DNA from: Selenomonas sp.
GTDB lineage: Bacteria; Bacillota_C; Negativicutes; Selenomonadales; Selenomonadaceae
Direction: 5' to 3'
DNA: 64,000 nucleotides
Assembly (NCBI RefSeq): GCF_024693525.1
Contig: NZ_JAILKR010000116.1
Coordinates: forward strand, 1-64,000
Shown here in pieces: positions 4,433 to 64,000 of the stretch (positions are counted from its first letter, which is position 1; every line of letters begins with the position of its first letter). The position numbers were made by a program, and so were the translations under genes. Under the pieces are notes generated by a model, which worked only from the letters and a program-made list of their open reading frames with translations, did no database searches and was not told the DNA's origin.

Positions 4433-4476
4433 TGTAACCCAAGTTACATACTGTTTTCATAAATCTCCCCTATAAT
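4433..4476 (+). promoter_or_regulatory. Fnr-type box and promoter of the candidate sRNA
   Basis: A perfect palindrome TGTAAC-CCAA-GTTACA (4433-4448, centre 4440.5) lies 30.5 bases before the first base of a perfect -10 TATAAT (4471-4476). No good -35 is present, as expected for a class II activator promoter. The half-site TGTAAC recurs before hcp, fnr, the diguanylate cyclase gene and the Moco operon (the last as AGTAAC). Confidence 0.7.
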
Positions 4477-4649: not shown

Positions 4650-4832
4650 TTTAAAATTATTTTCCACTCAATTACGACAATTTTTCTACCATTCCTAAAT
4701 AGAATCGTAAATCCTCTCAATAGCTATTGAAAAATGACAGAATATTATTTATGATAGGAATAGAGTAAATTGTAGATATAATTTATAGTAATTATGCTTT
4801 TACCCACTTCAATAAAAGGAGGCGCATTTATT
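4650..4832 (+). promoter_or_regulatory. AT-rich spacer with probable transporter promoter
   Basis: Non-coding stretch between the sRNA terminator and the DASS gene. It holds a perfect -10 TATAAT at 4777-4782 and the strong ribosome site AAAGGAGG at 4815-4822. No convincing -35 or Fnr-type box was found here. Confidence 0.5.
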
Positions 4833-39323: not shown

Positions 39324-40007
39324 TCACTCGATATTGCAGACTTCCCGGCCGCAATTCTCGCATTGGATTGCCTCTTTCAGATAGTCCAAATCCTTGATAA
39401 AGATCAGATGCCCACGGTATTCAATAATCCCTGCCTTGCGAAGTTCGCTGAGCATGCGGTTGAGGCTTTCCCGGGCGGTCCCCGAGTAATTTGCCAATTC
39501 CTGATTCGTAAGCGGCACGGAAATCAGTATGCCATCATCCAGTTCCTTCCCGTAACTGTTCGACAGGCGAATCAATGTCGAATACAACGCCCCTTTCTTT
39601 CCATACAAAACGAGATCGCGAAATTTTGAATGCTGTTTCCGCATATGCGCACTGATAAGTTTAAGCAAATTCACCGCCAGCTGCGGCTTTTTCTCCAGAT
39701 AAGCCTGAAGCACCGGAAACTCGATGGCATAGACCTCGGCTGCGCTCTGGGCTACGGCATTGAAAATGTATACGGGATTACTTTCATATAAGGGCAGCTC
39801 GCCAATTATACTGCTGCGCGTTGCCAACCGCAAGCTGAGTACCCGTCCCGACGATGCGTATTTCGTGATAAAAATCTGTCCCGTCCGCACAATATAAAAA
39901 TACTTGGCAGGATTCCCTTCATGAAACAGGTACTCTCCATCATGAAGCATGACAACCTTGCCGGGAATTTCATAGAGTTGACGGATTAACGATTCCATAG
40001 TTTCCAT
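39324..40007 (-). CDS. fnr: Fnr: oxygen-sensing Crp/Fnr-family regulator with C-terminal Fe-S ligands
   Basis: 228 residues. Cyclic-nucleotide-binding-like beta roll (20-120), dimer helix, and helix-turn-helix near 170-195 (LTNQELANYSGTARESLNRML) with the R-E-x-x-x-R pattern that reads TGTGA half-sites. The C-terminus ends CENCGREVC, giving Cys217, Cys220 and Cys225: the same CX2CX4C as Cys227/230/235 of B. subtilis Fnr. Asp131 (KFRDL) falls where that protein's fourth ligand, Asp141, lies (same offset of 10). Hence a [4Fe-4S] oxygen sensor. ATG 40007 follows GAGGTAATTGCC; a longer frame to 40073 is not used. Divergent from narK, with an Fnr-type box of its own. Confidence 0.93.
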   Translation of the reverse strand: METMESLIRQLYEIPGKVVMLHDGEYLFHEGNPAKYFYIVRTGQIFITKYASSGRVLSLRLATRSSIIGELPLYESNPVYIFNAVAQSAAEVYAIEFPVLQAYLEKKPQLAVNLLKLISAHMRKQHSKFRDLVLYGKKGALYSTLIRLSNSYGKELDDGILISVPLTNQELANYSGTARESLNRMLSELRKAGIIEYRGHLIFIKDLDYLKEAIQCENCGREVCNIE

Positions 40008-40038
40008 GGCAATTACCTCATTTCCTATTGCTAATAAC

Positions 40039-40081
40039 AGTTTACTAGAAATAGACTTTTTTACCTGTAACATTTATCACA
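40039..40081 (-). promoter_or_regulatory. Fnr-type box and promoter of fnr
   Basis: TGTAAC-ATTT-ATCACA (40066-40081, centre 40073.5) is 29.5 bases before -10-like TAAACT on the minus strand (40044-40039). This suggests positive autoregulation. Confidence 0.6.
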
Positions 40082-44723: not shown

Positions 44724-46013
44724 TTATAAACTTCCCTTTACCACTGCATTTACCTGAGCAATTGCAGTATGTGCCTTATCAATCGAAAGGCCTAGGACAC
44801 GCAGCTGTTTGTCTGGGTTGTGGAATCCCATACTGCTCTCGGCAGCGACAAAATCCCAATACCACTGAGCTTCACGCAACGTTTGGCGTGCTTCTGCCAA
44901 CTGCTCATCCGTTGCGCCGGCATCCATAGCGGCCTTGACCGTTTGATGTGCCTTCGCTACCGTCTGGCCAGCAATACGCTGGAGACGGAACGTGTTATCG
45001 CCAATCGTCTTGACGCGCTTGGTCAGCGTCTCTGCACTTTCCTGATGGCATTTCTGGCAAGATTCCTGCGCGGTCAAGAGCGGATTCGTCATCCAATGCA
45101 ACGTGTATTTTTGCCCATCTTTACGCATATACGGCATATGGCAGTCAACGCAGGTAACGCCATTCATCGCGTGGATCGAATCCTGCCAGGTCTCATAATC
45201 CGGATGCTGGGCCTTTAGCATCGGCGTCTTGGAATCCGCATGAATCCAATCCTGCTTGAAGCCGCCAGCATGACCATCCTGGTAATACTGATAAATCTCT
45301 TCGGCATCGAACCCATTATCCCATGGCTCGACGACACGGCCGTCTTCTTTGGCGAAATAATATTCGTTATGGCACTGACCACAGACATACGCACGCATCT
45401 CATTATGCGAAGCTTTGCTGATATCTACGCCACGGCGAGCCATAGCTTCGACAAATCCCTGCTGATAAACGCGCAGATCCATTGTCTCAGGATCATGGCA
45501 GGTCGAGCAGCCAAACCACTCATCATCCTTGATGGGCGCGGCAATCTCATCAAAGGGCTTCGTCGCGAAATCCCAGCCGCTTTCCTTGAAGTAAACATCA
45601 TACATGTAAGAGCTCTTGCAGACGATACAGGAACCCTTCTGTCCTGGGCGGCGCTTCGACTCGAGAATGTCGATACCAGCATAGGTATGGCCGCGATCAT
45701 CATCATATTGAATCGCAAACTTATATCCCTTGAAGTTCTCGAGTGCCTCCGGCTGTTCCTTCAGATGATCCACCTTATCCGAGCCGCCATAACCGGTCGG
45801 CGAAGGATGCATCTCATTGTTCTTCATGAACGACTCGTATTCGAGCGGATAGGCATTCTTATATCCATCCCTTGTCAATTGCTGATCTTTCGGAATCTTA
45901 GCGAGCTTTACGCTGTCATCATTGGGTGCCGCACCGATGCGAACCACCACAAAGCCAAAGAATACAAGACAAACAGCTGCGATTCCCGCTAATATTTTCT
46001 GTAGCTTACTCAA
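44724..46013 (-). CDS. nrfA: Ammonia-forming cytochrome c nitrite reductase NrfA
   Basis: 429 residues with an N-terminal signal/anchor (ILAGIAAVCLVFFGFVVVRIG). NrfA reduces nitrite to ammonium with six electrons outside the membrane. Five haem sites are visible: CIVCK (the active-site haem with Lys ligand), CSTCH, CGQCH, CVDCH and CQKCH. AQHPDYETW and HAMNGVTCVDCH match the catalytic surroundings. The start is TTG 46013 inside the end of nrfH, with GGGGGGATAAAAG ahead, so translation is probably coupled (8-base overlap). It depends on the ccm genes further along for haem attachment. Confidence 0.95.
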   Translation of the reverse strand: MSKLQKILAGIAAVCLVFFGFVVVRIGAAPNDDSVKLAKIPKDQQLTRDGYKNAYPLEYESFMKNNEMHPSPTGYGGSDKVDHLKEQPEALENFKGYKFAIQYDDDRGHTYAGIDILESKRRPGQKGSCIVCKSSYMYDVYFKESGWDFATKPFDEIAAPIKDDEWFGCSTCHDPETMDLRVYQQGFVEAMARRGVDISKASHNEMRAYVCGQCHNEYYFAKEDGRVVEPWDNGFDAEEIYQYYQDGHAGGFKQDWIHADSKTPMLKAQHPDYETWQDSIHAMNGVTCVDCHMPYMRKDGQKYTLHWMTNPLLTAQESCQKCHQESAETLTKRVKTIGDNTFRLQRIAGQTVAKAHQTVKAAMDAGATDEQLAEARQTLREAQWYWDFVAAESSMGFHNPDKQLRVLGLSIDKAHTAIAQVNAVVKGSL

Positions 46014-46494
46014 CTTTTATCCCCCCTTCGAGATGGTTCGCGCCATGAGCGATACTGCTATGGCATTTCAGGCAGTCAGCACCAGTGTCGAGGTCAACAC
46101 CGATCTGCGCATGAACATTCTTCATGGTATTCTCGTGACAGCGCAAGCAATTCGCATTGACCGTCTTCTTGGCATCCGCCGACAACTTGATGTGAGCCGG
46201 ATAATCCCGCATCACCTCATGATAGGTATCTAACATGCCGGTTCTCCCCTTCTCCATCATGTAGATAGCCATGTTATCATGCGGCAAATGACAATCTGTA
46301 CACTCAAGCTTGCTATGCGTTGACTCAGCAAACGTCCACGCTTCCATTTTCATTGCATGACAAGTACCGCAAAATTCCGGGCTGCCCGAAAACGACATCA
46401 TTGCCGCGCTAAATCCGCAAACTGCAATACCAAGGACGAATCCCCCCGCCAGACATGCTAATGTATGCTTCTGAATAAGCTGTTTGAAATCCAC
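46006..46494 (-). CDS. nrfH: Cytochrome c nitrite reductase small subunit NrfH
   Basis: 162-residue NapC/NirT-family membrane-anchored tetrahaem cytochrome that takes electrons from menaquinol to NrfA. One membrane helix (ACLAGGFVLGIAVCGFSAAMM) is followed by four haem sites: CGTCHAM (the CxxCHxM first haem of NrfH), CTDCH, CLRCH and CLKCH. ATG 46494 follows GAGGGG. First gene of the nrfHA operon. The promoter carries the GTTGC-N4-GCAAC operator shared with the regulator-ccm operon. Confidence 0.94.
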   Translation of the reverse strand: MDFKQLIQKHTLACLAGGFVLGIAVCGFSAAMMSFSGSPEFCGTCHAMKMEAWTFAESTHSKLECTDCHLPHDNMAIYMMEKGRTGMLDTYHEVMRDYPAHIKLSADAKKTVNANCLRCHENTMKNVHAQIGVDLDTGADCLKCHSSIAHGANHLEGGIKVE

Positions 46495-46524: not shown

Positions 46525-46567
46525 ATTATAGCATTTGTCAAAACGATGTGATGTTGCTCACGCAACC
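46525..46567 (-). promoter_or_regulatory. nrfHA promoter with GTTGC-N4-GCAAC operator
   Basis: GTTGC-TCAC-GCAAC (46553-46566, centre 46559.5) lies exactly 29.5 bases before a perfect -10 TATAAT (46530-46525) on the minus strand. No -35 is seen. Same arms and same spacing as before the Crp-type gene of the ccm operon. Confidence 0.75.
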
Positions 46568-46590
46568 ATTTTCAGAATTTTTTACACAAA

Positions 46591-46626
46591 AAAATTTCCG
46601 CTGACTTTATTCCAAAATCAGCGGAA
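46591..46626 (-). terminator. Intrinsic terminator of the ccm operon
   Basis: TTCCGCTGA (46596-46604) / TCAGCGGAA (46618-46626); the minus strand continues ATTTTTTTG. It separates ccmF from the nrfHA promoter. Confidence 0.88.
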
Positions 46627-46658: not shown

Positions 46659-48758
46659 TTATCGTTTAGAAGCTAATAAAGTACCGACACACACCAATAT
46701 ACTGCCCAGCCACAACAACCAAATGAATGGTTTCACGCTGATGCTGGCGGTAATGGCTTGTTGTGTTTCTGTCTCAAGTGAAGGCAGGATTTCCAGCCGC
46801 ACCTGCTTTTGGTCTGCCGATACCCCGGTTAACCGCAAGCGTTTTTTTCCGTCAAAGACATCAACCGGTTGGGACGTTCCCCCATCTGACGTAGCCTGTA
46901 TCGTCGGTTCGACACGTTCGATCGTATCGCCATCAGTCACGGCGATAACCGCTTTGACAAGCATCTTGCCACCACCCTGTTCCTCGAGCGTCACACCTTC
47001 AAACCGATAGGCAAAGAGATCATCCATATCCATACGGCCATGTTTCAGGATAAGTTCCTGCCTGCCACTATCCTTCGGTGGCGTCGGCGCAATGTAGATA
47101 TCGCCACTAATCATCTTGTCGATGGCTGGCTCGCGAGCCGCATCTTCGCCGTTGGCATGAAGTTTCGTCAAAGCGCGCACCTCACGGCCATCAACGGTAT
47201 AGATGTAGTATTTCGCCCGCATATCACCAGCAAACTCTTGCCCCTTGAAGACAATTTCATGACCATAGAGGGTAACTGGCTCACCAACTGCCAGCTCTTG
47301 CGAAGTCGTCTTACTGCCGCTGCCAGACAAGACAATGGCCAGCAGCGCCAGCCCCAAGCCAGCATGCGCAATCATGCCGCCCAAACCGATTGCCTGCTTG
47401 CGCCAGCTCCAAACGGATGCAGCAACGCCCATAAGGGCTGCGCCGGCCAGCAAAAGCGGCATAATCTGCTGGATTCCCATCAACCAGGCCAGTGCAGCGC
47501 CCAAAAGGAAAAAGACGCCCAACGGTTTCAGCGGTGCCGCTTTTTGACCGACTCCATAGCGCTGCAGGCTTGCACCAGCGAGGCAAAGCATCAGGACAAT
47601 CGCCAGCGGCAGCGTCGTGCGGACGTAAAAATCCGTATCCACAGCAGCCGGCTTGCCCAAAAGCTGTGTAAGAAGTGGCATCGACATGCCAAGGAAGATG
47701 ACGGCCGCGATAAAGACCAGCAGCAAGGCCCCCAGCAACACCAGAAATTCACGGCTGTCATAGGCAGGATACATCTCCCCCTGTGGCAGTTTGCCTGCCC
47801 GGACGGTCAACAGCAGCAAACCGCCGACAAGGACCAGCGCATTGACGACCGCAATCGTCATGCCGATGCTCGTGCCGCTGAATGAATGTACCGAAAAATC
47901 CCCCAGAATGCCGCTGCGCGTCAAAAAGGTGCCATAAAGGACCAGCGAAAAGGCAAAAATCGCCGCCAGATGTACCATCGACAGTGCCGCAGCCCGCACG
48001 CGGGCCACGCGCAGCACATGGATGAAGATACCAGCCACCAGCCAGGGAACGAGCGACGAATTCTCAACGGGATCCCAGCCCCAAAAGCCGCCCCATCCCA
48101 GGACCTTATAGGCCCAATAACCACCGATGAAGATCCCGGCACCGAGGAAAGCCCATGCTGCCAGCGCCCATCGGCGCGCCGTCTCCAGCCAGGCTTTTGT
48201 CGGCTGCCCTTCGATAAGAGCCGCTGCCGAGCAGGCAAATGGCACCGCCAAAAGCGCGTAGCCAAGGAAGATAATCGGCGGATGGATAGCCATCCACGGG
48301 TCCTGCAGCAACGGATTCAGTCCGACGCCATTTTCGACCGCAACCTCCTGCAGCAAAAACGGACTCTTGGCCAGCACGAGAATAGTCAAAAGCGTCTGCA
48401 AGACCATATACACGCACATGCCGACAGCGGACAAACGCTGACGATGACTCAGGACAACACCAGCCGCCGCATGGAACAGCAGCCAGAGCAAAAACGAGCC
48501 CTGCTGACCAGCCCAAAAGGCCGAGAACTTATACATCACCGGCAATTCCGCCGACGAATAGTTTGCCACATAGGCGATTTCAAAGTGATTGCCAAAAATC
48601 AAGACCAGCAAATAAATGCTGGCGCAAAGCGTACCGGCAAACGACAAAATCGTTAGCCAGCGGCCATAATGCTCCATGTGCTCCGTACGCACTGCATAAC
48701 AAAGAAGGGCACATAAGGCCAACGCCAGCGTAATCGCTAAAAATATCGTACCAACCAA
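46659..48758 (-). CDS. ccmF: Cytochrome c haem lyase subunit CcmF
   Basis: 699-residue polytopic membrane protein of the haem-handling family. The tryptophan-rich WWD segment, WGGFWGWDPVENSSLVPWL, lies near residue 215. Conserved histidines flank it (WMAIHPPIIFLGY and SMVHLAAIFAF), and a large C-terminal external domain precedes the last helix. CcmF transfers haem from CcmE to apocytochromes. The start is TTG 48758, with AAGGAGG 9 bases upstream and 17 bases after the ccmE stop; an earlier in-frame start overlaps ccmE. Last gene of the ccm operon. No ccmH or ccmG follows. Confidence 0.92.
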   Translation of the reverse strand: MVGTIFLAITLALALCALLCYAVRTEHMEHYGRWLTILSFAGTLCASIYLLVLIFGNHFEIAYVANYSSAELPVMYKFSAFWAGQQGSFLLWLLFHAAAGVVLSHRQRLSAVGMCVYMVLQTLLTILVLAKSPFLLQEVAVENGVGLNPLLQDPWMAIHPPIIFLGYALLAVPFACSAAALIEGQPTKAWLETARRWALAAWAFLGAGIFIGGYWAYKVLGWGGFWGWDPVENSSLVPWLVAGIFIHVLRVARVRAAALSMVHLAAIFAFSLVLYGTFLTRSGILGDFSVHSFSGTSIGMTIAVVNALVLVGGLLLLTVRAGKLPQGEMYPAYDSREFLVLLGALLLVFIAAVIFLGMSMPLLTQLLGKPAAVDTDFYVRTTLPLAIVLMLCLAGASLQRYGVGQKAAPLKPLGVFFLLGAALAWLMGIQQIMPLLLAGAALMGVAASVWSWRKQAIGLGGMIAHAGLGLALLAIVLSGSGSKTTSQELAVGEPVTLYGHEIVFKGQEFAGDMRAKYYIYTVDGREVRALTKLHANGEDAAREPAIDKMISGDIYIAPTPPKDSGRQELILKHGRMDMDDLFAYRFEGVTLEEQGGGKMLVKAVIAVTDGDTIERVEPTIQATSDGGTSQPVDVFDGKKRLRLTGVSADQKQVRLEILPSLETETQQAITASISVKPFIWLLWLGSILVCVGTLLASKR

Positions 48759-48775
48759 AAGAAGAAGCCTCCTTT

Positions 48776-49141
48776 TTATTTCTGCTGCTCGTATTTCGAC
48801 GGGCACTTGATGAGCAGTTTATCGGACTGGAACGCACCATCCCGATACTTGCCCACGGCGACAATATGATGGGCTTCATCAAATTGATCCGGCTTTGTCC
48901 CATGATAACGCACGAGCATATTTTCCCCCGTGTCCTCATCGAGCAGCGTGAACACAAAGTATTCGCCTTCCATATGCGGAGCCTCAGCTTTTTTGTCCAA
49001 CAGCCCCTTGACCTGGACGCTGCTCGTTGCCGTCCGCGCCTCAGCAATGCCGACATACGGCGTGACCGAATCGACGAAGCTATACCCCGCATAGCCGATA
49101 AACGCCAGAATCAGTATTCCCAGCAATATTTTCCGGTTCAT
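48776..49141 (-). CDS. ccmE: Haem chaperone CcmE, cysteine (CxxxY) variant
   Basis: 121 residues. A signal anchor (ILLGILILAFIGYAGYSFV) precedes the CcmE OB-fold (VQVKGLLDKK, EYFVFTLLDEDTGENMLVRYHGTKPDQFDEAHHIVAVGKY, then DKLLIKCPSKYE). The residue that binds haem covalently is normally His in HxxxY; here it is Cys113 in C-P-S-K-Y117. This is the CxxxY form known from sulfate reducers and archaea that use a reduced System I. Starts at ATG 49141, overlapping the ccmC stop as ATGA. Confidence 0.92.
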   Translation of the reverse strand: MNRKILLGILILAFIGYAGYSFVDSVTPYVGIAEARTATSSVQVKGLLDKKAEAPHMEGEYFVFTLLDEDTGENMLVRYHGTKPDQFDEAHHIVAVGKYRDGAFQSDKLLIKCPSKYEQQK

Positions 49142-49788
49142 GATAACGCCTCCTTATCCCCACGGCCAACGCTCCGCCATACCAGCCAAACATAGAGCAG
49201 TGTTGCATCGATAAGCCCTGCCAACAGCGTCCCCAGCATTACCGGGTCCATATCGAGCGAACCACTGCCGTTGATGACTGGCGATGGATGCAGCGAAAAA
49301 TACAGCCGCGGAATGATGAACACCAGGAATGGTACCGTCAGAAACGAAAACAACGCATAAACTGCTGTCACCCGCGCCCGCCGCCGTGGCTCAGGCATTG
49401 CCGCCCGCAGCGTCAAGTAGGCCCCGTAAATCAGCAGCAATACGAAAATTGTCGTCTGCCGTGGATCCCAGTTCCAATAAGCGCCCCAGGTCAGCTTGGA
49501 AAAGATAGCACCACTGAGCGTTGCCAGCACGACAAATACCAAGCCCAGCTTGGCTGACACCGCACTCAGACGATCCGCTTCCATCTCCTGCCGCCGTAAA
49601 TACCTTGCGCCCCACCAGGCACTCATAAGGAATGCCAGCACCGATACCCACGCCATGGGAATGTGGAAAAATGCGATGCGCACATAGTCTCCCAGCCCCT
49701 GCGCCGGTGGTACCACAAAGAAAACCAGATATATCAGCACTGCCGTAAGCACGCCAATCAGCCACGGCAGGATTCTAGCCTGTATCAC
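49138..49788 (-). CDS. ccmC: Haem transporter/haem-handling protein CcmC
   Basis: 216 residues with six membrane segments. The WWD motif WGAYWNWDPRQTTIFVLLLIY is near residue 115, with FFHIPMAWVS before it and SLHPSPVINGSG after it, whose histidines ligate haem. CcmC loads haem onto CcmE. The start is GTG 49788, with GGGGAGG 6 bases upstream; a TTG at 49824 overlaps the ccmB stop but has no such site. In the ccm operon between ccmB and ccmE. No ccmD reading frame was recognised. Confidence 0.92.
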   Translation of the reverse strand: MIQARILPWLIGVLTAVLIYLVFFVVPPAQGLGDYVRIAFFHIPMAWVSVLAFLMSAWWGARYLRRQEMEADRLSAVSAKLGLVFVVLATLSGAIFSKLTWGAYWNWDPRQTTIFVLLLIYGAYLTLRAAMPEPRRRARVTAVYALFSFLTVPFLVFIIPRLYFSLHPSPVINGSGSLDMDPVMLGTLLAGLIDATLLYVWLVWRSVGRGDKEALS

Positions 49789-49820
49789 TTTTATCCTCCC
49801 CATATCATACAATCCGCTAG

Positions 49821-50492
49821 TCAATCCTCATACCAAAGATAATCAAATAAAATCGACGCCCCGACGAGCAGAATAAAATCATAAAGTGCCATGCCACCAA
49901 GATACGAAACCGTAACTGCTCCCCCACCGAAGGCCCCTGCCGTCAGCGATATCGCCGGCAAAAACACGGGCAGGATAATTGGCAGCATCAATATCGAAAA
50001 TAAGCCGCTATGGACACTAGCCCCGGTAGTCAGCGCCGCAATCAGCGTTCCCGCCGCCGCTATGCCAAAACAGCCCAGCAGCACAGTTCCCAGCAATACC
50101 AGCGGTGCGGCCACCGCCACATCCATCAACACCAGGAACAACGGGGTTATAAACAAAGCCAGCAGTACCAGCAGGAATAAGGTATAGAGCATCTTTCCCA
50201 AGAGCACCGCCTGCGCAGGGCCAAAAATATGTAAAGTAAGCAACGTTCCTGCGGTATCCTCATCGGCAAACACGCGGTCAGCGCCAGCCATCGCTGCAAA
50301 AAACAAGCTGACCCACAAAAGGGCCGCCAGCAGGCGCGGCTCTACCGCGCCCCCCTGCATCGCCATGCTGACACAGGCCAGCGTCGTAAGCGCGAACATG
50401 AACATCGCCGCCCATGCCGCTTTGAACCGCATTCCTATGGTAAGTTCCTTGCAGAATACGAGCTTAATGCCCCGCCAGATGGATTGCTGCAT
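49821..50492 (-). CDS. ccmB: Cytochrome c maturation ABC permease CcmB
   Basis: 223-residue membrane protein with six hydrophobic segments. Family stretches: VFCKELTIGMRFKAAWAAM near the N-terminus, FADEDTAGTLLTL near residue 75, and PVFLPAISLTAGAF near 165. With CcmA it forms the ABC transporter that releases holo-CcmE. ATG 50492 has AGGAGG 9 bases upstream and overlaps ccmA by 29 bases; a longer frame within ccmA is not used. Confidence 0.88.
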   Translation of the reverse strand: MQQSIWRGIKLVFCKELTIGMRFKAAWAAMFMFALTTLACVSMAMQGGAVEPRLLAALLWVSLFFAAMAGADRVFADEDTAGTLLTLHIFGPAQAVLLGKMLYTLFLLVLLALFITPLFLVLMDVAVAAPLVLLGTVLLGCFGIAAAGTLIAALTTGASVHSGLFSILMLPIILPVFLPAISLTAGAFGGGAVTVSYLGGMALYDFILLVGASILFDYLWYED

Positions 50493-51093
50493 CGGCTGCC
50501 GCCTCCTCTCGTTCGTCATTGGTCGCCCATAGCACCAGACGTCCCTCGTCGGCCGCCTGCCGAGCCTCACGCAGCACCAGTTCTCGACCAACTGCATCAA
50601 GATTCGCCCCGGGTTCATCGAGCAGCCAGATATCCGCCTCTGCGGCCAAAAGTGCCGCCAGCTTCAAACGCTGGCGCATGCCGGTCGAAAACTCTCCCGT
50701 AACGGTTGTCGCCACGGCCTGATCCCGCAAACCTACGCGTGCCAGCAGCACCTGAAACTTTATCTCCGTCAGCTCTATGCCCCGAAGCCCCAGCAGGAAA
50801 GCGAGATTCTCCCGCGCCGTCAGTCGTGGATAGAATCTTAGCTCGGGCGTTACCATCGCTAGACGGGTGCGCAGCTCTGCCCGCCGCAGCTCTCGCGCAT
50901 CCTCCACAACACTTACGCGGCCAGCCGCTGGCAGCATGAAATGCGCCGCTAACTTCAGCAGCGTCGACTTGCCACTGCCATTCTGTCCGGTCACGGCCGT
51001 AATCGTACCGCTTCGCAGCTCGGCGTTGATGTCCTGAAAGATTGTTCGGCCGTAAAACGACTGGGTAACCGCTTCAAACTTTATCGTTATCAT
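50464..51093 (-). CDS. ccmA: Cytochrome c maturation ABC ATPase CcmA
   Basis: 209 residues. ABC ATPase: Walker A GQNGSGKST (about residues 36-44), a degenerate signature FSTGMRQRLKLA, Walker B WLLDEPGANLD and a switch His replaced by Asn (WATNDERE). This pattern fits CcmA, whose ATP hydrolysis drives CcmE recycling. It starts at ATG 51093, three bases after the Crp-type gene, and overlaps ccmB. The atypical signature may be tolerated because CcmA is not a classical transporter. Confidence 0.88.
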   Translation of the reverse strand: MITIKFEAVTQSFYGRTIFQDINAELRSGTITAVTGQNGSGKSTLLKLAAHFMLPAAGRVSVVEDARELRRAELRTRLAMVTPELRFYPRLTARENLAFLLGLRGIELTEIKFQVLLARVGLRDQAVATTVTGEFSTGMRQRLKLAALLAAEADIWLLDEPGANLDAVGRELVLREARQAADEGRLVLWATNDEREEAAADAAIHLAGH

Positions 51094-51096
51094 GAT

Positions 51097-51777
51097 TCAA
51101 CACCCAATCTTATCTTTGTTGAGCTGCAGCCAGTCCTCACCGACCGTCAGCATGCCCTCAGTCTTCATCGCCGCAATCTCGCGCGTCAAGGCACTGCGGT
51201 TGCACTCGATTTCCTTGGCCAATTGTACGCGTCCCGGCACCTTGACCTGTTCACTCTGATAGCGCCCCTCACGCTGCAAAAGATAGAGAATCAGCCGTTC
51301 ACGCAAGGTTTTCTGCGATAAGAGTTCAATTTTTTCCATCATCATGACATTCTTGCGGCAAAACGCTTCTAATAGATTACGCATGACCATGCCATGCGTA
51401 TGTCCCAGCTTAGGGCCTGCTACCAAAAGCGACCGATACGACACCCAAAGCACGAGCACATCAGTCAACGCCTCAATCGACGTATTGTTATTGGACTGGA
51501 ATCGCGGCAGAATTGCTGACGCACTGCCCATCATCGCACCACGTTCCAATATGTGGCCAATCGATTCATTGCCAAAGCGATCCTCAGCAATAACCTGAGC
51601 CTTTCCCTCAACCATAACCCCTATATTGGCATTGGGCTCATAGGCTTTAAGAATCCGCGTTCCTTTTTCATAACGCTTGACCGCCGCCCCCGTACTCATA
51701 ATAAAGCGATCTACTTCCTCAGCGGAAACATCCCGAAACAAGGGCAGTTCCTGTAAATCCAAATGATAGATCTGCAT
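51097..51777 (-). CDS. Crp/Fnr-family regulator heading the ccm operon
   Basis: 226 residues. Beta-roll sensor (20-115), long dimer helix, winged helix-turn-helix near 175-205 (VQLAKEIECNRSALTREIAAM). No cysteine cluster for Fe-S is present. In the recognition helix the Crp/Fnr residues R-E-x-x-x-R read R-S-x-x-x-R, losing the Glu that contacts TGTGA, which agrees with the different operator GTTGC-N4-GCAAC at its own promoter. ATG 51777 follows GGAGGGG. ccmA starts 3 bases after its stop, so it is co-transcribed with ccmABCEF; nrfHA has the same operator. Likely senses nitrite, NO or haem; the ligand is unknown. Confidence 0.85.
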   Translation of the reverse strand: MQIYHLDLQELPLFRDVSAEEVDRFIMSTGAAVKRYEKGTRILKAYEPNANIGVMVEGKAQVIAEDRFGNESIGHILERGAMMGSASAILPRFQSNNNTSIEALTDVLVLWVSYRSLLVAGPKLGHTHGMVMRNLLEAFCRKNVMMMEKIELLSQKTLRERLILYLLQREGRYQSEQVKVPGRVQLAKEIECNRSALTREIAAMKTEGMLTVGEDWLQLNKDKIGC

Positions 51778-51817
51778 CCAATCCCCTCCAGAAAATCTTC
51801 CGTTTTTAACTGGCTTC

Positions 51818-51859
51818 ATTATATCATCGAAAGTCACATACATACGTTGCACAAGCAAC
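51818..51859 (-). promoter_or_regulatory. Promoter of the regulator-ccm operon with GTTGC-N4-GCAAC operator
   Basis: Perfect palindrome GTTGC-ACAA-GCAAC (51846-51859, centre 51852.5), exactly 29.5 bases before a perfect -10 TATAAT (51823-51818) on the minus strand. The position is that of a class II activator, suggesting the regulator activates its own operon. Confidence 0.75.
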
Positions 51860-51975
51860 CTATGTCAGGAATATTCGCTTCCCTCCCCCCAACCTCCTGC
51901 CTATATATTCATCAATAGCGCCAGTTGCTACAAACATTTTTTCATCCTCTCCCCATAACGCTCATCCATTCAGTC

Positions 51976-52016
51976 AAAAAAAAGCTCATCGGCACTTTCC
52001 TTAGCCAATGAGCTTT
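51976..52016 (-). terminator. Intrinsic terminator of hcp
   Basis: AAAGCTCAT-c-GGC (51981-51993) / GCC-a-ATGAGCTTT (52004-52016), followed on the minus strand by eight T. The 200-base gap between hcp and the ccm-operon promoter shows nothing else. Confidence 0.88.
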
Positions 52017-52061
52017 CTCTTTATTTTTTTATCGCAAATTTATCGCTAATGAAGCTGGGAA

Positions 52062-53696
52062 TCAGCCAATCATTTTCTTGATATCTTCTTCTACCGTCGT
52101 AATGCCGCCAATACCAAAGTTCTCAACCAGGACTTTCGCTACATTCGGGGACAGGAAGGCCGGCAGCGTTGGGCCGAGGTGAATATTCTTGACACCAAGG
52201 TGCAAGAGTGCCAACAGGACGATTACAGCTTTCTGCTCATACCAAGCAATGTTGTAGGCAATCGGCAACTCGTTAACATCATCAAGGCCGAATACTTCCT
52301 TGAGCTTGAGCGCGATGAGAGCCAGGCTATAGGAATCGTTGCACTGTCCGGCATCGAGAACCCGCGGGATACCGCCAATATCGCCGAGATTCATCTTGAT
52401 GTATTTATACTTGGCACAACCAGCCGTCAGGATAACCGTATCCTGCGGCAGCGCTTTGGCAAACTCCGCATAATAGTCGCGGGACTTCATGCGGCCATCG
52501 CAGCCAGCCATGACAACAAATTTCTTGATGGCACCAGACTTAACGGCTGCAACGACTTTATCAGCCACCGCAAATACCTGCTCATGGGCAAAGCCGCCGA
52601 CAATCTGTCCCTGCTCGAGCTCTTCCGGTGCTTCGCACTGCTTGGCCATTTCGATAATCGGACCGAAATCCTTCGTGCCATCAGCTTTAGCGGCAATATG
52701 CTGGCAGCCCGGCACCCCCGTTGCTCCCGTCGTAAACAAGCGGTCCTGATACGATGCCTTCGGCGGTACTACGCAGTTGGTGGTCATGAGAATCGGGCCA
52801 TGGAAGGCTTCGAATTCCTCTTTCTGTTTCCACCAAGCATTGCCGTAGTTGCCCGCAAAGTTCTCGTATTTCTTGAACTTCGGATAATAATGGGCCGGCA
52901 GCATCTCGCCATGGGTGTAGACATCCACCCCTGTGCCCTGAGTCTGCTCCAAAAGCATCTCCAAATCCTTGAGGTCATGTCCCGAAATCAGGATACCCGG
53001 ATTCTGGCGCACGCCAAGATCAACCTTGGTAAGTTCCGGATTCCCATAGGTCTCCGTATTTGCCTTATCCAAGAGGGCCATGCCATCGACGCCCCACTTA
53101 CCCGTTTCCAGCGTCAGCGCCGTCAAGTCGTCACCGGTCAAACTGTCATCGAGGAGTTTAGCCAGTGCCGACTGGGCAAATGCATCGATTGCTTCGTTTT
53201 CATACCCCAGCACATTGGCATGTTTCTGATAAGCTGCCAACCCCTTGAGGCCATAGGTGATAAGTTCACGCAGGCTGCGGATATCCTCATTTTCTGTTGC
53301 CAGGATACCGACCTTCGCGGCTTTGGCGTCAAACCCGTCTTCCGTATCATTCCAAAGGGCTGCCTCAGGCAGATTCTCACGGTTCGCGAGGCTTGCCAGC
53401 AATTCCATTTTAACGTCCAAAGTATTTTTGATGCGTTCTACGATTGCTTCACGGTCAAAATTAGCATTGGTAATCGTCACAAACAGATTCAGCGTAATCT
53501 GATGATTAACCTCTGCCGCCACTTTCTTCCCTTCAGCGCGCAGACGCGTCGTAACCGCAGCCAACCCCTTCGTCACATAAATCAAAAGGTCCTGCATCGC
53601 TGCCACTTCCGGCTTCTTGCCACAGACACCAACCTGCGTGCAGCCCTTGCAGCCTGCCGTCTCCTGGCACTGATAGCAAAACATCTTGTTCTCCAT
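52062..53696 (-). CDS. hcp: Hydroxylamine reductase / hybrid cluster protein
   Basis: 544 residues. The N-terminal motif [19 protein letters not shown] gives Cys7, 10, 19 and 25, the [4Fe-4S] site of the anaerobe class. The hybrid-cluster ligands follow in the C-terminal domains ([54 protein letters not shown]). Hcp removes nitric oxide and/or hydroxylamine formed during nitrite respiration. ATG 53696 follows AAGGAGAG. Monocistronic; no hcr reductase gene is adjacent. An Fnr-type box with correct spacing lies upstream. Confidence 0.95.
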
Positions 53697-53774: not shown

Positions 53775-53817
53775 ATTATAGCGGAGCTATTCTCTCCAAG
53801 CTGTAACATTCGCTACA
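53775..53817 (-). promoter_or_regulatory. Fnr/HcpR-type box and promoter of hcp
   Basis: TGTAAC-ATTC-GCTACA (53802-53817, centre 53809.5), one mismatch from a perfect palindrome, lies exactly 29.5 bases before a perfect -10 TATAAT (53780-53775) on the minus strand. Confidence 0.7.
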
Positions 53818-58543: not shown

Positions 58544-61500
58544 TCACTTTTGGCTGGCATGAACCAGTTTTTCTGCTTGCAATTGTTCTATCGTTAAATT
58601 TCGCAAGTAGGACTTATGCTCCTCATCTTTTTGATAGACAAAACCGACATGGCGTACAAAAGGTTCAATCGTCGCAATCTTTAAGAGCGGTGTTACTACC
58701 AACAACTGCAAATCCATTTTGCGGAACAATTCAAGACCAAAGCGTGCTGACTCATCCGAACTCTTGAGGAAGGCTTCATCAATCACCACGAACCGGAACG
58801 ATTGCTCGCTTGCCCGCTTCCCTTCAAGGCCAAAATTGTATACGATACTTGCTGCCAGTATCGTATAGGCAAGTTTTTCCTTCTGACCGCCTGACTTACC
58901 GCCCGAATCGGTATAATGCTCGTATTCGGCATCCTCTCCAGGTGCAGGATCACGCCAGCGCTCCGATGCCGCGAAGGTATACCAATTGCGCACGTCGATG
59001 ACTTCGCGCCGCCAGCGGGCATCGATTTCCGTATTTCCCGGCCGCCCCTGCAAGCGTTCTAATATCTTTGCCACCTGCTGGAATTTCTGCTCACTGTAGC
59101 TGTCATCCACCGCCCCCGTCAATGCATCATCGGTACAAGCCCGCAAGTCCCGACGGAACTGCTGTATCGTATCACTTACTGCATGACTGCATTCAATCTG
59201 GATATAACGGCCTTCGTTATAATCAATCTCGGCCAAGGAGCGATTGATTCGGGCGATACGATCCTCAATTTCCTGACAAGTATTTTCCAAATGAGTCTGG
59301 AACAGGGCAATCTGGTTAATGGTATTTTCCCGCAGCAATTCCCGAAAACGCCCCTCGAATTTCGGCAGATCATCGGTGCGCAGGCGGTTGAGCAGGGCGA
59401 TATAATCCGCAGCTACCTCGGGAGAACAGAGAAGGTCTGCACTCACCTCCGGCCATTGCTGCCGGAATCCCGTCATCAACCGGGCAAGCTCCTCACCATG
59501 GTGGCGAAGCAGCTCTTCCTGCTGATGGCCTTCCTCTTGGAGCCAGGCACCAAAACGGGCCTGCAATTTCTGCCGGCTGGACAGTTCAAAAGTCTGGTTG
59601 GGCAAAGCCTCCGCCATATAGCGTTCCAGCAGCGGATATACCGTGGACTGCACCTCAGCAGGCGTCTCATTCATCAACTCAGCTTCTACTAGCATCTGTT
59701 CCCGGGTACCACGGCAGCGCTCCTGAATCCGGCTGGCTTCATCCCGCTTGGAACTTACGTCCTGCTGGCAGCGTGCCACCTGACGAACCAGTGCCTGCTC
59801 TTCCTCCTGAAGTTTGCGGTAAACATCGTTCTTTTGTCGCAGTTCTTCCACCCGCTGCTGAAGTTTTGCCAGCTGCTGGATCAGCGGTGCAATGTCAAGC
59901 TCCTGAAAGCTCTGAACCTGACCTGCCAGCATAATGGCATCTTTTTCTCCCTGCAATTTTTTCTGCGCCGCCTTGTTCTTGCGCAATTTCTGCTGGAAGA
60001 ATTTCTGCTCTTCGCGAATGTTCTCGCGCTCCTCCTGCAAGGATTGGATTTTGCGCAGGTTGGAAAAGCCCAACACATAGTCACGGCGGTTATCGAGGGC
60101 CCGGCGATCATCCTTTTCATGACGACGACCGTTAATCTTGACCTGTCCCTTGCGGGTCAGGGCAAACTTAGCCTGGCGGAATTCCTGCATGGTCTCACAG
60201 CAGGTATGACGAAACCGGGTATAGAGCTCACTGCTCAGCCAATTGCAATAGGCCGACTCTTCTTTTAGCTGCAATTTGCGGCAGGCGGCGTCCTCAGGCA
60301 GAGTTTCCATATCCACGGATTCTACGTAGTCCGAAACGCGGAAATACACCAATTTCACATGAAGATTGTGTTGCTCCATCCAGCCAGCGACCTCACCGTA
60401 ATGAGCATCGGAAACCAGCAAAGAAATGCCGAAGCCATGAAGCAACCGCTCCAAGGCGCCTTCCCATTCGGCTTCCGTTTCCTTGACGGCCATAAGTTCC
60501 CCAGCAAAAGGCATCTCATCTTCCGCCAAGCCCAGATCCTCACAGAGCTGTTCGCGAATCTTGACATATTTATTCGGGATATTCGATTTGCGCTTTGCCA
60601 GCGATTCGATTTCCTCCGTCAGCTGCGTTTCCAGCACCACGGCCTCTTTGCGATTGGCTTCGATGGCACCACTGTCGGCCATCAAGTCCTCCAGCTCCTG
60701 CTCGATGGACTGCTGCCGTTCCTGCATAGTCTGCTGATTCCTGCGAAAATCCTCCACAGAGGAGGGCATTGCCAGCACCAGCAAATCAAGCTGCTGCTGA
60801 TATTTTTCCCGCACCAACTCGCACTGGCCCTTTTGCTGCTGACAAAGTTCCAGCTGGTGACGCACCTCATCCAGCTGCTGGCCGCCATTACGGGCCATTT
60901 CCCGGTGGACGCCGTCCAGCTGCTGTTGCAGGCTATCACAGGTACCTTTGGCATCCTGCCAGGCTTTCTGCAGTTCGGCTAATTTGGCCTCGGACTGCTG
61001 CAGCATGCTCTCCTGGACTTTATAAGCCTTACCGGCAAACCAGCTGGCCAAATGCTGCTGCATGACGGCATTCTCCTGTTGTTTCCGGCCGGCTGCTGCA
61101 TATTCCTGACCGAGTTTTTCAATCGGCTGCAGGTATTTTTGCTGCTCCCGGGCCCGTTCCACCGCCTGATGTGCTGCTTCCAGGTCATGGTACTGGCGCA
61201 GCATGACCTCGACCTCCTGCTCCGCATCCGGCACTTCCAGCATGTTTTGACGAACGAAACCCGTGAGGCTGTCGACTTTCTTCATGGAAATCGTCTGTTG
61301 GAACAGATCCATAGCCTGAATCTGACGAATGCCGAAAATCTTGCGGAATTCATGACCGTACTGGGGATAGTCGTCAAAGGTCTTAATAAAGAAATCCCGT
61401 TCGAGTTGCTTGCGGAAGGCGCGCATATCGCCGCCAATAGCCGAAAACCGCTCCGTTATCGAAAGCGTCTTCTGGGCGAGCACATAGAAACGCTTAGGCG

Positions 61501-61936
61501 AAGCGGCCGCCTCATCCGGAAACCAAAAAACCTGCGCCAGCGTCACCGTACGGCCAAAATTCCGGTCCGAAAACACCCCGAGCACGACGCTATACTGATC
61601 TTTGCCACGCAGAGCCTCGGGGCGACCACCGCCATCTTCCGTGCGCTTTTGACCATAGTAACCGCGCACATACGAAGCCAGACTGCGTTCCTTTGCACTT
61701 GCATCAGCCGCCTTGTTATACGTCACCTTGCGCGGCGGCACCAAAAGCGTGATGATGGCATCGACAAGCGTCGATTTACCAGAACCAACGTCACCGGTCA
61801 AAAGCGACGTATCCCCCGACAGGTCCAGCGTCCAGACTTTCCCATCAAAGGTGCCCCAGTTATAGACCTCAAGACGCTGCAGGCGGAAACCGAGTGGGAT
61901 GTCTTTAAATTCAGTCGTCGTCTCGAATAAGTTCAT
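58544..61936 (-). CDS. jetC: Wadjet-type SMC-like ATPase JetC
   Basis: 1130 residues. SMC/MukB-like ATPase: Walker A GDVGSGKSTLVDAI at residues about 48-61, two long coiled coils (about 250-500 and 640-850) around a hinge-like middle, then the signature SGGKSGGQKEKLAY and Walker B FVVIDEAFLKSSDESA near the C-terminus. The N-terminus (GFRLQRLEVYNWGTFDG) is typical of COG4913 proteins. With JetB (DUF4194) and JetA (DUF3375) it forms the loop-extruding complex of Wadjet, which recognises small circular DNA such as plasmids. ATG 61936 overlaps jetB by 26 bases. No jetD follows; a terminator does. Confidence 0.9.
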   Translation of the reverse strand: MNLFETTTEFKDIPLGFRLQRLEVYNWGTFDGKVWTLDLSGDTSLLTGDVGSGKSTLVDAIITLLVPPRKVTYNKAADASAKERSLASYVRGYYGQKRTEDGGGRPEALRGKDQYSVVLGVFSDRNFGRTVTLAQVFWFPDEAAASPKRFYVLAQKTLSITERFSAIGGDMRAFRKQLERDFFIKTFDDYPQYGHEFRKIFGIRQIQAMDLFQQTISMKKVDSLTGFVRQNMLEVPDAEQEVEVMLRQYHDLEAAHQAVERAREQQKYLQPIEKLGQEYAAAGRKQQENAVMQQHLASWFAGKAYKVQESMLQQSEAKLAELQKAWQDAKGTCDSLQQQLDGVHREMARNGGQQLDEVRHQLELCQQQKGQCELVREKYQQQLDLLVLAMPSSVEDFRRNQQTMQERQQSIEQELEDLMADSGAIEANRKEAVVLETQLTEEIESLAKRKSNIPNKYVKIREQLCEDLGLAEDEMPFAGELMAVKETEAEWEGALERLLHGFGISLLVSDAHYGEVAGWMEQHNLHVKLVYFRVSDYVESVDMETLPEDAACRKLQLKEESAYCNWLSSELYTRFRHTCCETMQEFRQAKFALTRKGQVKINGRRHEKDDRRALDNRRDYVLGFSNLRKIQSLQEERENIREEQKFFQQKLRKNKAAQKKLQGEKDAIMLAGQVQSFQELDIAPLIQQLAKLQQRVEELRQKNDVYRKLQEEEQALVRQVARCQQDVSSKRDEASRIQERCRGTREQMLVEAELMNETPAEVQSTVYPLLERYMAEALPNQTFELSSRQKLQARFGAWLQEEGHQQEELLRHHGEELARLMTGFRQQWPEVSADLLCSPEVAADYIALLNRLRTDDLPKFEGRFRELLRENTINQIALFQTHLENTCQEIEDRIARINRSLAEIDYNEGRYIQIECSHAVSDTIQQFRRDLRACTDDALTGAVDDSYSEQKFQQVAKILERLQGRPGNTEIDARWRREVIDVRNWYTFAASERWRDPAPGEDAEYEHYTDSGGKSGGQKEKLAYTILAASIVYNFGLEGKRASEQSFRFVVIDEAFLKSSDESARFGLELFRKMDLQLLVVTPLLKIATIEPFVRHVGFVYQKDEEHKSYLRNLTIEQLQAEKLVHASQK

Positions 61937-62579
61937 CCATCATCTCTCCTTCCTCCCTTTCGCCCTCCACAGTCTCGTCATGACGGGCTTGTCCATACTT
62001 TTCATAGGCTTCTAGTTTCTGCGCAAAATCATCCAGCCACTGCGCATCGACAAAGTTGCGCAAAATCGGGCGCACTTCATAATCGGTATCCTGACCTTTG
62101 ATTTTCAGCAAAAATCCCATGCGCACAGCCGCCCGCACGAGATGCTCCACCGATTGACGATATTTCATCTCATTGATCTGAATTGGCAAAAACGGCTCCA
62201 TACGGCGTAAAATATCCTCAAAGCTGATGACTACGCGGTCACCACCAGCTGCCCGATCGTACTCCGCGAGCACCTTGCGCAGTTGCACCAACAGCATCGA
62301 TAAATTATAACTCAGCGGATAGCGCGGCACGATATGCGGCAGACCACTGCCTTCTTCCTGCCGCAAATAGGCGTATTCATCCAGCTCATTGATAATAAGC
62401 GTCAGGCCAATGCGGCGGAAATAATCACGCAGTTCCGTCTGTCTGCCTATAATATCCTGCCAAAGGACCTCGTCCCGACCTCGACTTACAATTCCTTTTA
62501 AAAGCATAACAGCCGCCCGCGAAAAAGCCTGTTCCTGAGGATTCTCCCCACTCGCGACTGCCGTATTGTCCAAATCCAT
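61911..62579 (-). CDS. jetB: Wadjet component JetB (DUF4194, MukE-like)
   Basis: 222 residues of the DUF4194 family, the MukE/kite-like winged-helix partner of JetC. It has the family pattern AAVMLLKGIVSRGRDEVLW near residue 23, RIGLTLIINELDEYAYLRQ near 56, PRYPLSYNLSMLLVQLR near 84 and VEHLVRAAVRMGFL near 143. The C-terminal 30 residues are strongly acidic. ATG 62579 follows AAAGGA, with GGAGG further up, five bases after the jetA stop. Overlaps jetC. Assignment rests on the family pattern plus operon order A-B-C. Confidence 0.85.
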   Translation of the reverse strand: MDLDNTAVASGENPQEQAFSRAAVMLLKGIVSRGRDEVLWQDIIGRQTELRDYFRRIGLTLIINELDEYAYLRQEEGSGLPHIVPRYPLSYNLSMLLVQLRKVLAEYDRAAGGDRVVISFEDILRRMEPFLPIQINEMKYRQSVEHLVRAAVRMGFLLKIKGQDTDYEVRPILRNFVDAQWLDDFAQKLEAYEKYGQARHDETVEGEREEGEMMDELIRDDD

Positions 62580-62584
62580 ATCCT

Positions 62585-64000
62585 TTATTTCCTCCGAAAT
62601 ACGACTCGATTACAAATGGCCATAAGCTTTTGCCCATCGCGCTCAAATAAGATGCGCTCCAAAGCACGGTTGTCAAAAGCCTCAGCCTCCTCATGACTGG
62701 CCAGTACCAGATATCCCAAAAGCTCCGACAGCCCTTGCTGCAGCGGATGTACCGCCAGCACCTCAGAAAGCGTGACTTCGGGGCGTTCCGCCAAAAGATC
62801 ACGGACATTTGCCTGCAACTGTTCCCGATCGACAATAACCTGATTGAAAATAGCCGAAAGCTCTCCATCCTCTCCACTACCCGCCTGCAATACCGGACTT
62901 ACGAGTTTTGTTGCCTGTGGCGGAGCAAATAACCGCCGCTCCATCGGCAGCTGCACCGCCGGTGAAATCTCCCGAATTTCCGTAAACTCTCCGTGAGGCA
63001 GCTGCCCACGCTGATCCACCGCCATCGTTTCAATTCGCTGAATCAACTGATAAATGGTCCGTTCCTCCTGCAGATACGCCTCATCGACATAACGGCGCAA
63101 CTGAGCCGACAGCTGGCCAAGCGTCTGCTGCACCGAACCTGCCGCCCGCACCCAATCCCGATTGATCGACATAAGCGGATGCTTAGGAAGCATTTCCCGA
63201 ATGGACTCCGTTTGGCTCAGCTGTGCCATCGTCTCACGAAAATCTTCCTGCTGTTGCGAAAGCATTAAATACCGCCAAAACGCCATAAAGCTCCGCCCCT
63301 GCTCCGATTTACGGATGATATCACTCTCGTTGAATATCTTTTCCAGCAGCTCACCCTTGCCCCGCGTCCACTTGACGACATCATCCTGGACCTTACGCGT
63401 TAGCTCACGGAAATTCTCCTCAACTTCGCGAAAATCGGCCAAGATTGCCTGCGCCGTACTCTCAGCCTGCAGGAATCGTTCCTTTATCTGTACATCATCC
63501 AGCTGCGGCTTTACTACACCACTTGCCTCGATTTCCGCCAGTTCCGCTGCGATCTTTTCCTGCTGCTCCTGCAGATACGCCTTGCGATGCTCGACATCGG
63601 TATCCGTCTCGCGGGCAATTTCGTGCAGCAGATTAAATACCGTGCGCAGCCGTGACTCCGTACCGACAAAATCCTGCTTATGCAAGCTGACCAGCCACTC
63701 AACCGCCTTCTGCGCTGGAGCAGTGAGGTCAAAATACCAATCATCGTGGTACTCATATTTCCGCAGCCAGCCATGCTCGGTGTCTGACCATATTTCCAAA
63801 TAATCCTGAGGAGAACGCCCAAACGCCTCGCCTGCCGTCTGCTGCTGCGCATCGTAAAGGAACATGTCCAGATGTTCCAAAAGTTCCTGGGCTTCAATGC
63901 CACGACGCTTGCCGGCAATAAACTCCCGGTAAAAAAAAGCCGCAATAAAGGCAGCCTGGTCGGCTGTAAGTAACCGCCAGGCTGCATTATTCAAGCGCAA
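62585..64000 (-). CDS. jetA: Wadjet component JetA (DUF3375, kleisin/MukF-like), partial
   Basis: Right-edge fragment: the last 471 codons are present, and the true start lies at or beyond base 64000 (no ATG with a ribosome site is visible). DUF3375 proteins are the kleisin-like JetA subunit. Recognisable parts: RLLTADQAAFIAAFFYREF near the edge, YLEIWSDTEHGWLRKY near 85, a helical middle (LTRKVQDDVVKWTRGKGELL), and a C-terminal winged-helix-like segment (TLSEVLAVHPLQQGLSELLGYLVL). It overlaps nothing and is followed by jetB after five bases. Family length of roughly 480-500 residues suggests little is missing. Confidence 0.85.
   Translation of the reverse strand: MRLNNAAWRLLTADQAAFIAAFFYREFIAGKRRGIEAQELLEHLDMFLYDAQQQTAGEAFGRSPQDYLEIWSDTEHGWLRKYEYHDDWYFDLTAPAQKAVEWLVSLHKQDFVGTESRLRTVFNLLHEIARETDTDVEHRKAYLQEQQEKIAAELAEIEASGVVKPQLDDVQIKERFLQAESTAQAILADFREVEENFRELTRKVQDDVVKWTRGKGELLEKIFNESDIIRKSEQGRSFMAFWRYLMLSQQQEDFRETMAQLSQTESIREMLPKHPLMSINRDWVRAAGSVQQTLGQLSAQLRRYVDEAYLQEERTIYQLIQRIETMAVDQRGQLPHGEFTEIREISPAVQLPMERRLFAPPQATKLVSPVLQAGSGEDGELSAIFNQVIVDREQLQANVRDLLAERPEVTLSEVLAVHPLQQGLSELLGYLVLASHEEAEAFDNRALERILFERDGQKLMAICNRVVFRRK

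Follow-up and report, generated by a model that had tools for sequence, protein, structure and literature searches.

The locus considered here raises the question of what a Crp/Fnr-type regulator controls from the head of a cytochrome c maturation operon, and whether the nitrite reductase genes that follow belong to the same circuit. In the window (the whole 64-kb stretch of Selenomonas DNA that was analysed), three units lie in tandem on the minus strand, hcp, regulator-ccmABCEF and nrfHA (family assignments from profile matches), and these transcription units are set apart by terminator-like hairpins after hcp and after ccmF. The features, in the order in which they would be transcribed, are:

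53803..53816, minus strand: candidate hcp operator of HcpR2 type, GTAGC-GAAT-GTTAC, with one arm mismatch, 22 nt before TATAAT at 53775-53780
52062..53696, minus strand: hcp, hybrid cluster protein, the neighbouring unit
51976..52021, minus strand: terminator-like hairpin 3' of hcp, between hcp and the regulator (stretch 51958-52040, z -5.39)
51846..51859, minus strand: candidate operator of the regulator-ccm operon, GTTGC-TTGT-GCAAC, centre -41.5
51818..51823, minus strand: TGn-extended -10 TATAAT, 22 nt downstream of the regulator-ccm operator
51097..51777, minus strand: regulator of the Crp/Fnr type (226 aa) with recognition helix CNRSALTRE, probable start ATG 51777, ribosome binding site ggagggg
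50464..51093, minus strand: ccmA, heme exporter ATPase
49821..50618, minus strand: ccmB, ORF as listed, overlapping ccmA
49138..49824, minus strand: ccmC
48776..49141, minus strand: ccmE, with CPSKY (CxxxY) close to the C-terminus
46659..48806, minus strand: ccmF/nrfE-type heme lyase
46588..46625, minus strand: terminator-like hairpin and T-run 3' of ccmF, between ccm and nrfHA (stretch 46525-46625, z -3.06)
46553..46566, minus strand: candidate operator of nrfHA, GTTGC-GTGA-GCAAC, centre -41.5
46525..46530, minus strand: -10 TATAAT with extended TGn, nrfHA
46006..46494, minus strand: nrfH, cytochrome c nitrite reductase small subunit
44724..46013, minus strand: nrfA, pentaheme nitrite reductase, with a CIVCK motif

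The listed ORF of the regulator starts at TTG 51858, which is probably wrong; ATG 51777 is preferred since the TTG lies inside the operator, while the ATG has a good ribosome site and fits the start of most orthologues. The true start of ccmB probably also lies further inside its listed ORF, given the overlap with ccmA. The CIVCK motif of NrfA occurs alongside a single CcmF/NrfE-type gene in the operon. Elsewhere in the window are a further Crp-type regulator (PF13545, PF00325) at 39324-40073, with an MFS transporter in divergent orientation, and jetA-jetB-jetC of a Wadjet-type defence system (58544-64000).

The preliminary description had placed GTTGC-N4-GCAAC palindromes before regulator-ccmABCEF and before nrfHA at equal distances from TATAAT; both were found there, with the same 22-nt gap, and its figure of 29.5 bases is correct as counted from the middle of the operator to where the -10 begins, that is, -41.5. 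In class II geometry the activator site is centred at -41.5, and an operator 22 nt before TATAAT, with its centre at about -41.5, thus takes the class II activator position. Exact GTTGCNNNNGCAAC matched the window twice, at these two sites only (shuffle mean 0.07), and two or more exact matches arose in 2 of 300 shuffles, with five matches against 2.42 expected when up to one mismatch was allowed. The palindrome followed by N22-TATAAT occurred twice in the window and not once in all 300 shuffles combined, and of the window's 36 TATAAT hexamers only those of these two operators follow a perfect 5-4-5 palindrome at exactly 22 nt. A chance origin of the two sites is excluded. A GTAAC palindrome, GTAACCCAAGTTAC, lies at 4434-4447, 23 nt before a TATAAT; it precedes a gene of the sodium:sulfate symporter family (4794-6377) and is possibly an HcpR-type site.

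The protein belongs to the Crp/Fnr superfamily: PF00027 matched with E 1.8e-7, and the AF2 model (pLDDT 87.4, helix at 194-206) matched Crp/Fnr structures with a best E of 1.3e-14; none of the HTH Pfam models scored above threshold against it. The phosphate cassette of CRP comprises Glu72 and Arg82, and no Glu occurs in the aligned stretch of the regulator, RGAMMGSASAILP (alignment by eye), which thus lacks the cAMP-binding Glu72/Arg82 cassette. An FNR-type N-terminal cysteine cluster is likewise absent, residues 1-100 of the 226 being free of cysteine, and Ala64 stands where a low-similarity profile alignment places the heme residue Met68 of Porphyromonas gingivalis HcpR. The C-x3/4-C-x2-H stretch of many relatives is missing from the regulator, and His128 is invariant across 13 aligned rows. 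Judged from the targets, one might guess at NO, a nitrite-derived species or heme status as the signal. In the tree, the regulator clade (17 rows, support 100/100) lies outside the Pro181-type clade (57 rows, 100/97, including two Thr181 rows), on the Ser181 side. Serine in place of the Glu of Crp/Fnr proteins, to which the preliminary description had drawn attention, does occupy the CRP Glu181 position (R194-S195-A-L-T-R199). CRP residues 180, 181 and 185 contact DNA according to passages of PMC1274295, and the present regulator has Arg, Ser and Arg there.

The preliminary description had made its proposal depend on conservation of the motif together with the regulator, and in related genomes the motif is conserved. 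The named-locus set comprised the best 80 of 91 relatives, all from Selenomonas, Mitsuokella, Quinella or other Selenomonadaceae, Selenomonadales or Veillonellaceae, with Selenomonas sp. ND2010 as the closest named relative (regulator 100% identical). Among these best 80 of 91, ccmA directly follows the regulator in 73, ccmF in four and nrfH in two, and in one (L076) none of these does. An exact palindrome followed by N22 and a -10 stands upstream of the regulator in 37 of the 80 named loci and upstream of nrfH in 22 of 32 regions of sufficient length; for ccmE, mostly an operon-internal gene, the count is 1 of 40. An extended -10 (TGnTATAAT or TGnTATACT) accompanies 60/60 such sites (37 regulator, 22 nrfH, one ccmE), and the four spacer letters between the operator arms vary across loci. 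The -35 match (2.38/6 versus a background of 2.61/6) is only slightly poorer and carries little weight. The exact N22 site is absent from 43 of the 80 regulator upstream regions despite the same recognition helix: in 24 of the 43, the 14-mer at N22 is degenerate and keeps 6-9 of the 10 letters of the arms, many such sites being GTGAC-N4-(A/G)(T/C)AAC in Quinella-like genomes, and apart from L075 the remainder are without any site, the regulator gene being operon-internal in some. At L075 the regulator site is an exact palindrome but with a 21-nt gap, and L084, with a degenerate regulator site, has an exact operator instead before ccmE-ccmF-nrfH. Several relatives have another site some 2 kb upstream; its assignment to hcp was rejected when tblastn showed nrfH. 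Several regulators (L028, L029, L153-L161) have an internal stop or frame break, and in G022 (L027) the regulator is shortened and fused into ccmB and the operator is missing, which resembles a deletion.

A scan at a fixed -10 spacing, as the preliminary description had proposed, was made across 121 Selenomonadaceae genomes, in which GTTGCN4GCAAC-N22-TANNNT gave 93 matches against seven for the reversed pattern. When all 93 were classed, 83 lay before the regulator (42; 16 assigned by sequence and 26 by coordinates), nrfH (38) or ccmE (3), and the remaining matches lay before nap-type operons (2), hcp (2; loci L142 and L143 in genomes G068 and G091) or nothing plausible (6). A promoter-type site is present in 47 of the 51 genomes with an orthologue (our cut-off, E ≤1e-75, plus broken copies in G032 and G089), in 9 of the 11 carrying the g7 form (a 40%-identical regulator) and in 1 of 59 other genomes (G066); rows in these and all other counts are related by descent and do not represent independent events. 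NrfA is encoded in 50 of the 51 orthologue genomes, and the orthologue is missing from 20 of the 70 nrfA genomes (13 of the 20 in genus g9), so the regulator is not required for nrf. No ccm, nrf or hcp match lay beside the regulator in the three g7 stretches read. The bare palindrome without spacing was rejected as a marker (2-11 sites per genome versus 0-6 reversed in 22 genus genomes): by itself it is unspecific, and it becomes specific once N22 and a -10 are added. With up to three mismatches, eight genus genomes gave at least 207 matches versus at least 139 for the reversed pattern, and nine of the matches listed were examined, falling at napG (4 loci), genes for DUF1858/hemerythrin/PAS-type proteins (4) and an enolase-like gene (1).

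The half-matched word, GTGAC-N4-GCAAC-N22-TANNNT, gave 23 matches versus five reversed in the same 121 family genomes: 10 before a napG-like then a napH-like gene, two before the regulator, one before hcp (G106), three before other genes and, in g9, 7 of the 23 before a conserved methyltransferase-like gene (L375-L381). Genus g9 is without the present regulator, and the GTGAC form is therefore not specific to it. Four NapG-like proteins had NapG as their best NCBIfam model, with E from 2e-38 to 4e-41 but below the curated cut-off. The two nap-type operons with an exact GTTGC site encode, in assignments also below curated cut-offs, a NapC/NrfH-like cytochrome and a gene product with NapA as best model (L264), and NapG- and NapH-like proteins followed by a NapC/NrfH-like cytochrome (L266). 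Whichever of the two forms the nap-linked site takes, the genome has a regulator orthologue (12/12), and periplasmic nitrate reductase (napGH) probably joins the regulon; it would be a weaker member, since none of the nap sites read has an extended -10 and the GTGAC form occurs also without the regulator.

The relation between recognition-helix residues and operator word was surveyed among HcpR-like regulators of the Bacillota. From the phylum, 299 genomes were drawn, 77 of which hold a relative (E ≤1e-25) of a Ser181, hcp-facing regulator, and palindromes were sought upstream of 82 regulators, accepting any perfect 5-4-5 word with a -10 at 21-23 nt, and GT-N2-C words also without the -10 condition. 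Of 82 matches listed, the set excludes G001, G083, G040:C9 and L350 (the last yielding no protein), and it includes L172, L176, L305 and L306, added by hand; L172 and L176, which make up two of the eight GTTGC rows, were known beforehand to carry that word. Pro181 regulators (n=48) had GTAAC (27), GTAGC (4), GTATC (1) or no word (16), that is, GTA-type words in 32/48 and GTT in none, and Ser181 regulators (n=28) had GTTGC (8), GTTGT (6), GTGGT (1) or no word (13), and GTA in none. GTTGC stood before 1 of 5 Thr181 regulators (L298) and GTTTG before the single Ala181 regulator; unrelated palindromes from the free -10 search came up at L273, L297, L328 and L359. Arg185 is found in 8/8 Ser181 rows with GTTGC and 0/6 with GTTGT. 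The correlation suggests that Pro181 goes with GTA words, Ser181 plus Arg185 with GTTGC and Ser181 without Arg185 with GTTGT; the 82 rows are related, and no probability is therefore attached to this code. Thr181 was rejected as a word discriminator, with GTTGC at L298 but GTAGC at L180 and L181 (Thr181, Pro181-type clade). The eight GTTGC sites face hcp in three cases (L172, L176, L274), a 4Fe-4S ferredoxin-like gene in two (L273 called by Pfam, L276 by eye), and a gene for an ODP-type metallo-beta-lactamase fold (L332), a cupin-like protein (L335) or a membrane protein (L342), the last two called by eye. Across the 83 loci of this survey, hcp is divergent from the regulator in at least 25 (14/30 with 1.5-kb flanks, 9/49 with about 0.5 kb, 2/2 and 0/2). 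The operator of the window fits the HcpR2 form GTNNC-N4-GNNAC, as GTTGC with Ser181/Arg185, in the same way as in eight relatives.

Taken with the conserved layout, these data make it very probable that a Ser181/Arg185 Crp/Fnr-type activator acts on GTTGC-N4-GCAAC to co-induce ccm, itself and nrfHA and, in relatives, nap through the half-matched site. A dimer of the 226-aa regulator would bind GTTGC-N4-GCAAC and, centred at -41.5 at its own and the nrfHA promoters, would recruit RNA polymerase to the extended -10 in the class II manner. Co-induction would then provide CcmABCEF for heme delivery to cytochrome c, further regulator (positive feedback) and NrfHA; in relatives, ccmEF operons would be included, together with the napGH nitrate reductase operon via GTGAC-N4-GCAAC. 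The neighbouring hcp, with its sister word GTAAC-N4-GTTAC, would be assigned to a separate Pro181 HcpR, and recognition-helix residues would hold the two circuits apart. At L369-L372, mixed words (GTAAC-N4-GCAAC or GTAAC-N4-GTAAC) lie 22 nt before a -10, ahead of genes for DUF1858/hemerythrin/PAS proteins (two of the four loci run through Pfam), and could be common to both regulators.

That the regulator is simply this organism's HcpR, controlling hcp under nitrosative stress and reaching ccm and nrf only secondarily, we consider unlikely. The location of hcp directly upstream of the regulator points that way, as do the Ser181 relatives opposite hcp in 3/8 GTTGC rows and 5/6 GTTGT rows, the GTTGC or GTGAC sites before hcp in G068, G091 and G106, and the top TM-score, among the matches listed, to P. 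gingivalis HcpR. However, no exact GTTGC palindrome precedes hcp in the window, which has GTAGC-N4-GTTAC at N22 instead, nor was an exact site found in any of 13 hcp upstream regions of the named loci (L057 has a one-mismatch 14-mer 39 nt before the start), whereas 19 of the 30 GTAAC-N22 loci examined in the family precede hcp and the Pro181 paralogue of genus members (TRPSLSREL) falls within the Pro181-type clade (in this comparison L302 was used in place of L163, and L164 was not included). It is decidedly unlikely that the operators are real but are used also or mainly by another regulator, such as the third Crp-type paralogue with helix GVNRSALSREL (Ser181, Arg185), for which the residue code predicts the same word and which in G014 adjoins, on the opposite strand, a GTTGCCATGACAAC-N22-TACAAT just upstream of it. 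The GTGAC form speaks for such sharing, as it occurs in g9 genomes that lack the present regulator, but the third paralogue was seen in three genomes only (G003, G014, G025), and 56 of the 57 genomes with promoter-type GTTGC sites have the present regulator or its g7 form. At L166 (2824-2837) and L167 the third paralogue has a near-match operator, GTTGTCATGGCAAC, upstream, and cross-talk between it and the present regulator is possible.

Repression is possible for Crp/Fnr proteins, and the regulator might occupy the promoter until released by its signal; against this, the fixed -41.5 position with an extended -10 at 60/60 sites is the layout of class II activated promoters, and we regard repression as very unlikely. 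It is barely credible that the palindrome is an RNA element, the stem of a terminator or attenuator. The nrfH site of L072 does lie within a 13-bp stem followed by a T-run, and the L028 site (g7) within a long stem, but a stem of at least 9 bp with a T-run directly after it occurs at 1/60 sites and 44/60 end at 5 bp, the window has separate terminator-like hairpins, and the gap to the -10 is constant. At L072, one palindrome may act as both terminator and operator.

We return, then, to a predicted activator that would join ccm and nrfHA. The preliminary proposal of one factor linking the two holds in the placement of the sites, in an operator distinct from the neighbouring GTAAC type and in conservation; the novelty of the operator, for which it knew of no described regulator, is not supported. 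Ser181/Arg185 relatives elsewhere in the phylum have GTTGC-N4-GCAAC beside them, and Ser181 HcpR2 proteins of Clostridium thermocellum and C. difficile, with a motif that deviates from GTAACnnnnGTTAC and is given in a figure, were already reported in the passages of Rodionov et al. 2005 (PMC1274295). Four spellings of the literal operator pattern gave no match in the searchable literature, and the regulator was not found described there for Selenomonas. As far as that literature was searched, the predicted regulon (ccm, nrf, probably nap) and the combination of a class II position with an extended -10 appear to be new, as do the suggested role of residue 185 and the two words side by side in one genome. 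There is practical interest in feeding nitrate as a means of reducing methane, and a dedicated regulator coupling cytochrome c assembly to nitrate/nitrite ammonification would offer a handle on nitrate handling by rumen Selenomonas. The residue-operator correlation also makes a change of Crp/Fnr word testable by residue swaps between two natural paralogues of one genome.

Compared with the HcpR2 proteins of Bacillota in the passages of PMC1274295, the present regulator is alike in its Crp/Fnr type, the lack of an FNR cysteine cluster and 14-bp GTNNC-N4-GNNAC words at N22, and differs in a predicted regulon of ccm, nrfHA and nap rather than hcp and in its own clade (100/100). C. difficile HcpR is a Ser181 HcpR2 (PMC1274295), and work with mutants connects it with nitrosative stress and with frdX-hcp as its target (PMC12915319, in passages without operator letters). 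P. gingivalis HcpR (PDB 9day) has the highest TM-score (0.78) to the AF2 model among the 50 PDB matches listed, at 18% identity, and in the passages of PMC12750200 it has a heme-associated Met68, Gln at 181 and hcp as its target, whereas Ala64 and Ser181 occupy these positions here. The predicted HcpR1 regulon of Desulfuromonas and Geobacter also includes nrfHA (PMC1274295), but HcpR1 is a separate branch with the operator TTGAC-N4-GTCAA, and the passages of that paper give no ccm link. NnrR also has a 4-nt-spaced palindrome before N-oxide genes, but its word, TTGCG-N4-CGCAA, amounts to a one-base shift and its targets are denitrification genes (passages of PMC1274295). Nrf of the E. coli type is under Crp-FNR family control too (passages of PMC12285233), but there the regulators are global, whereas here the predicted regulator is local and heads the ccm operon.
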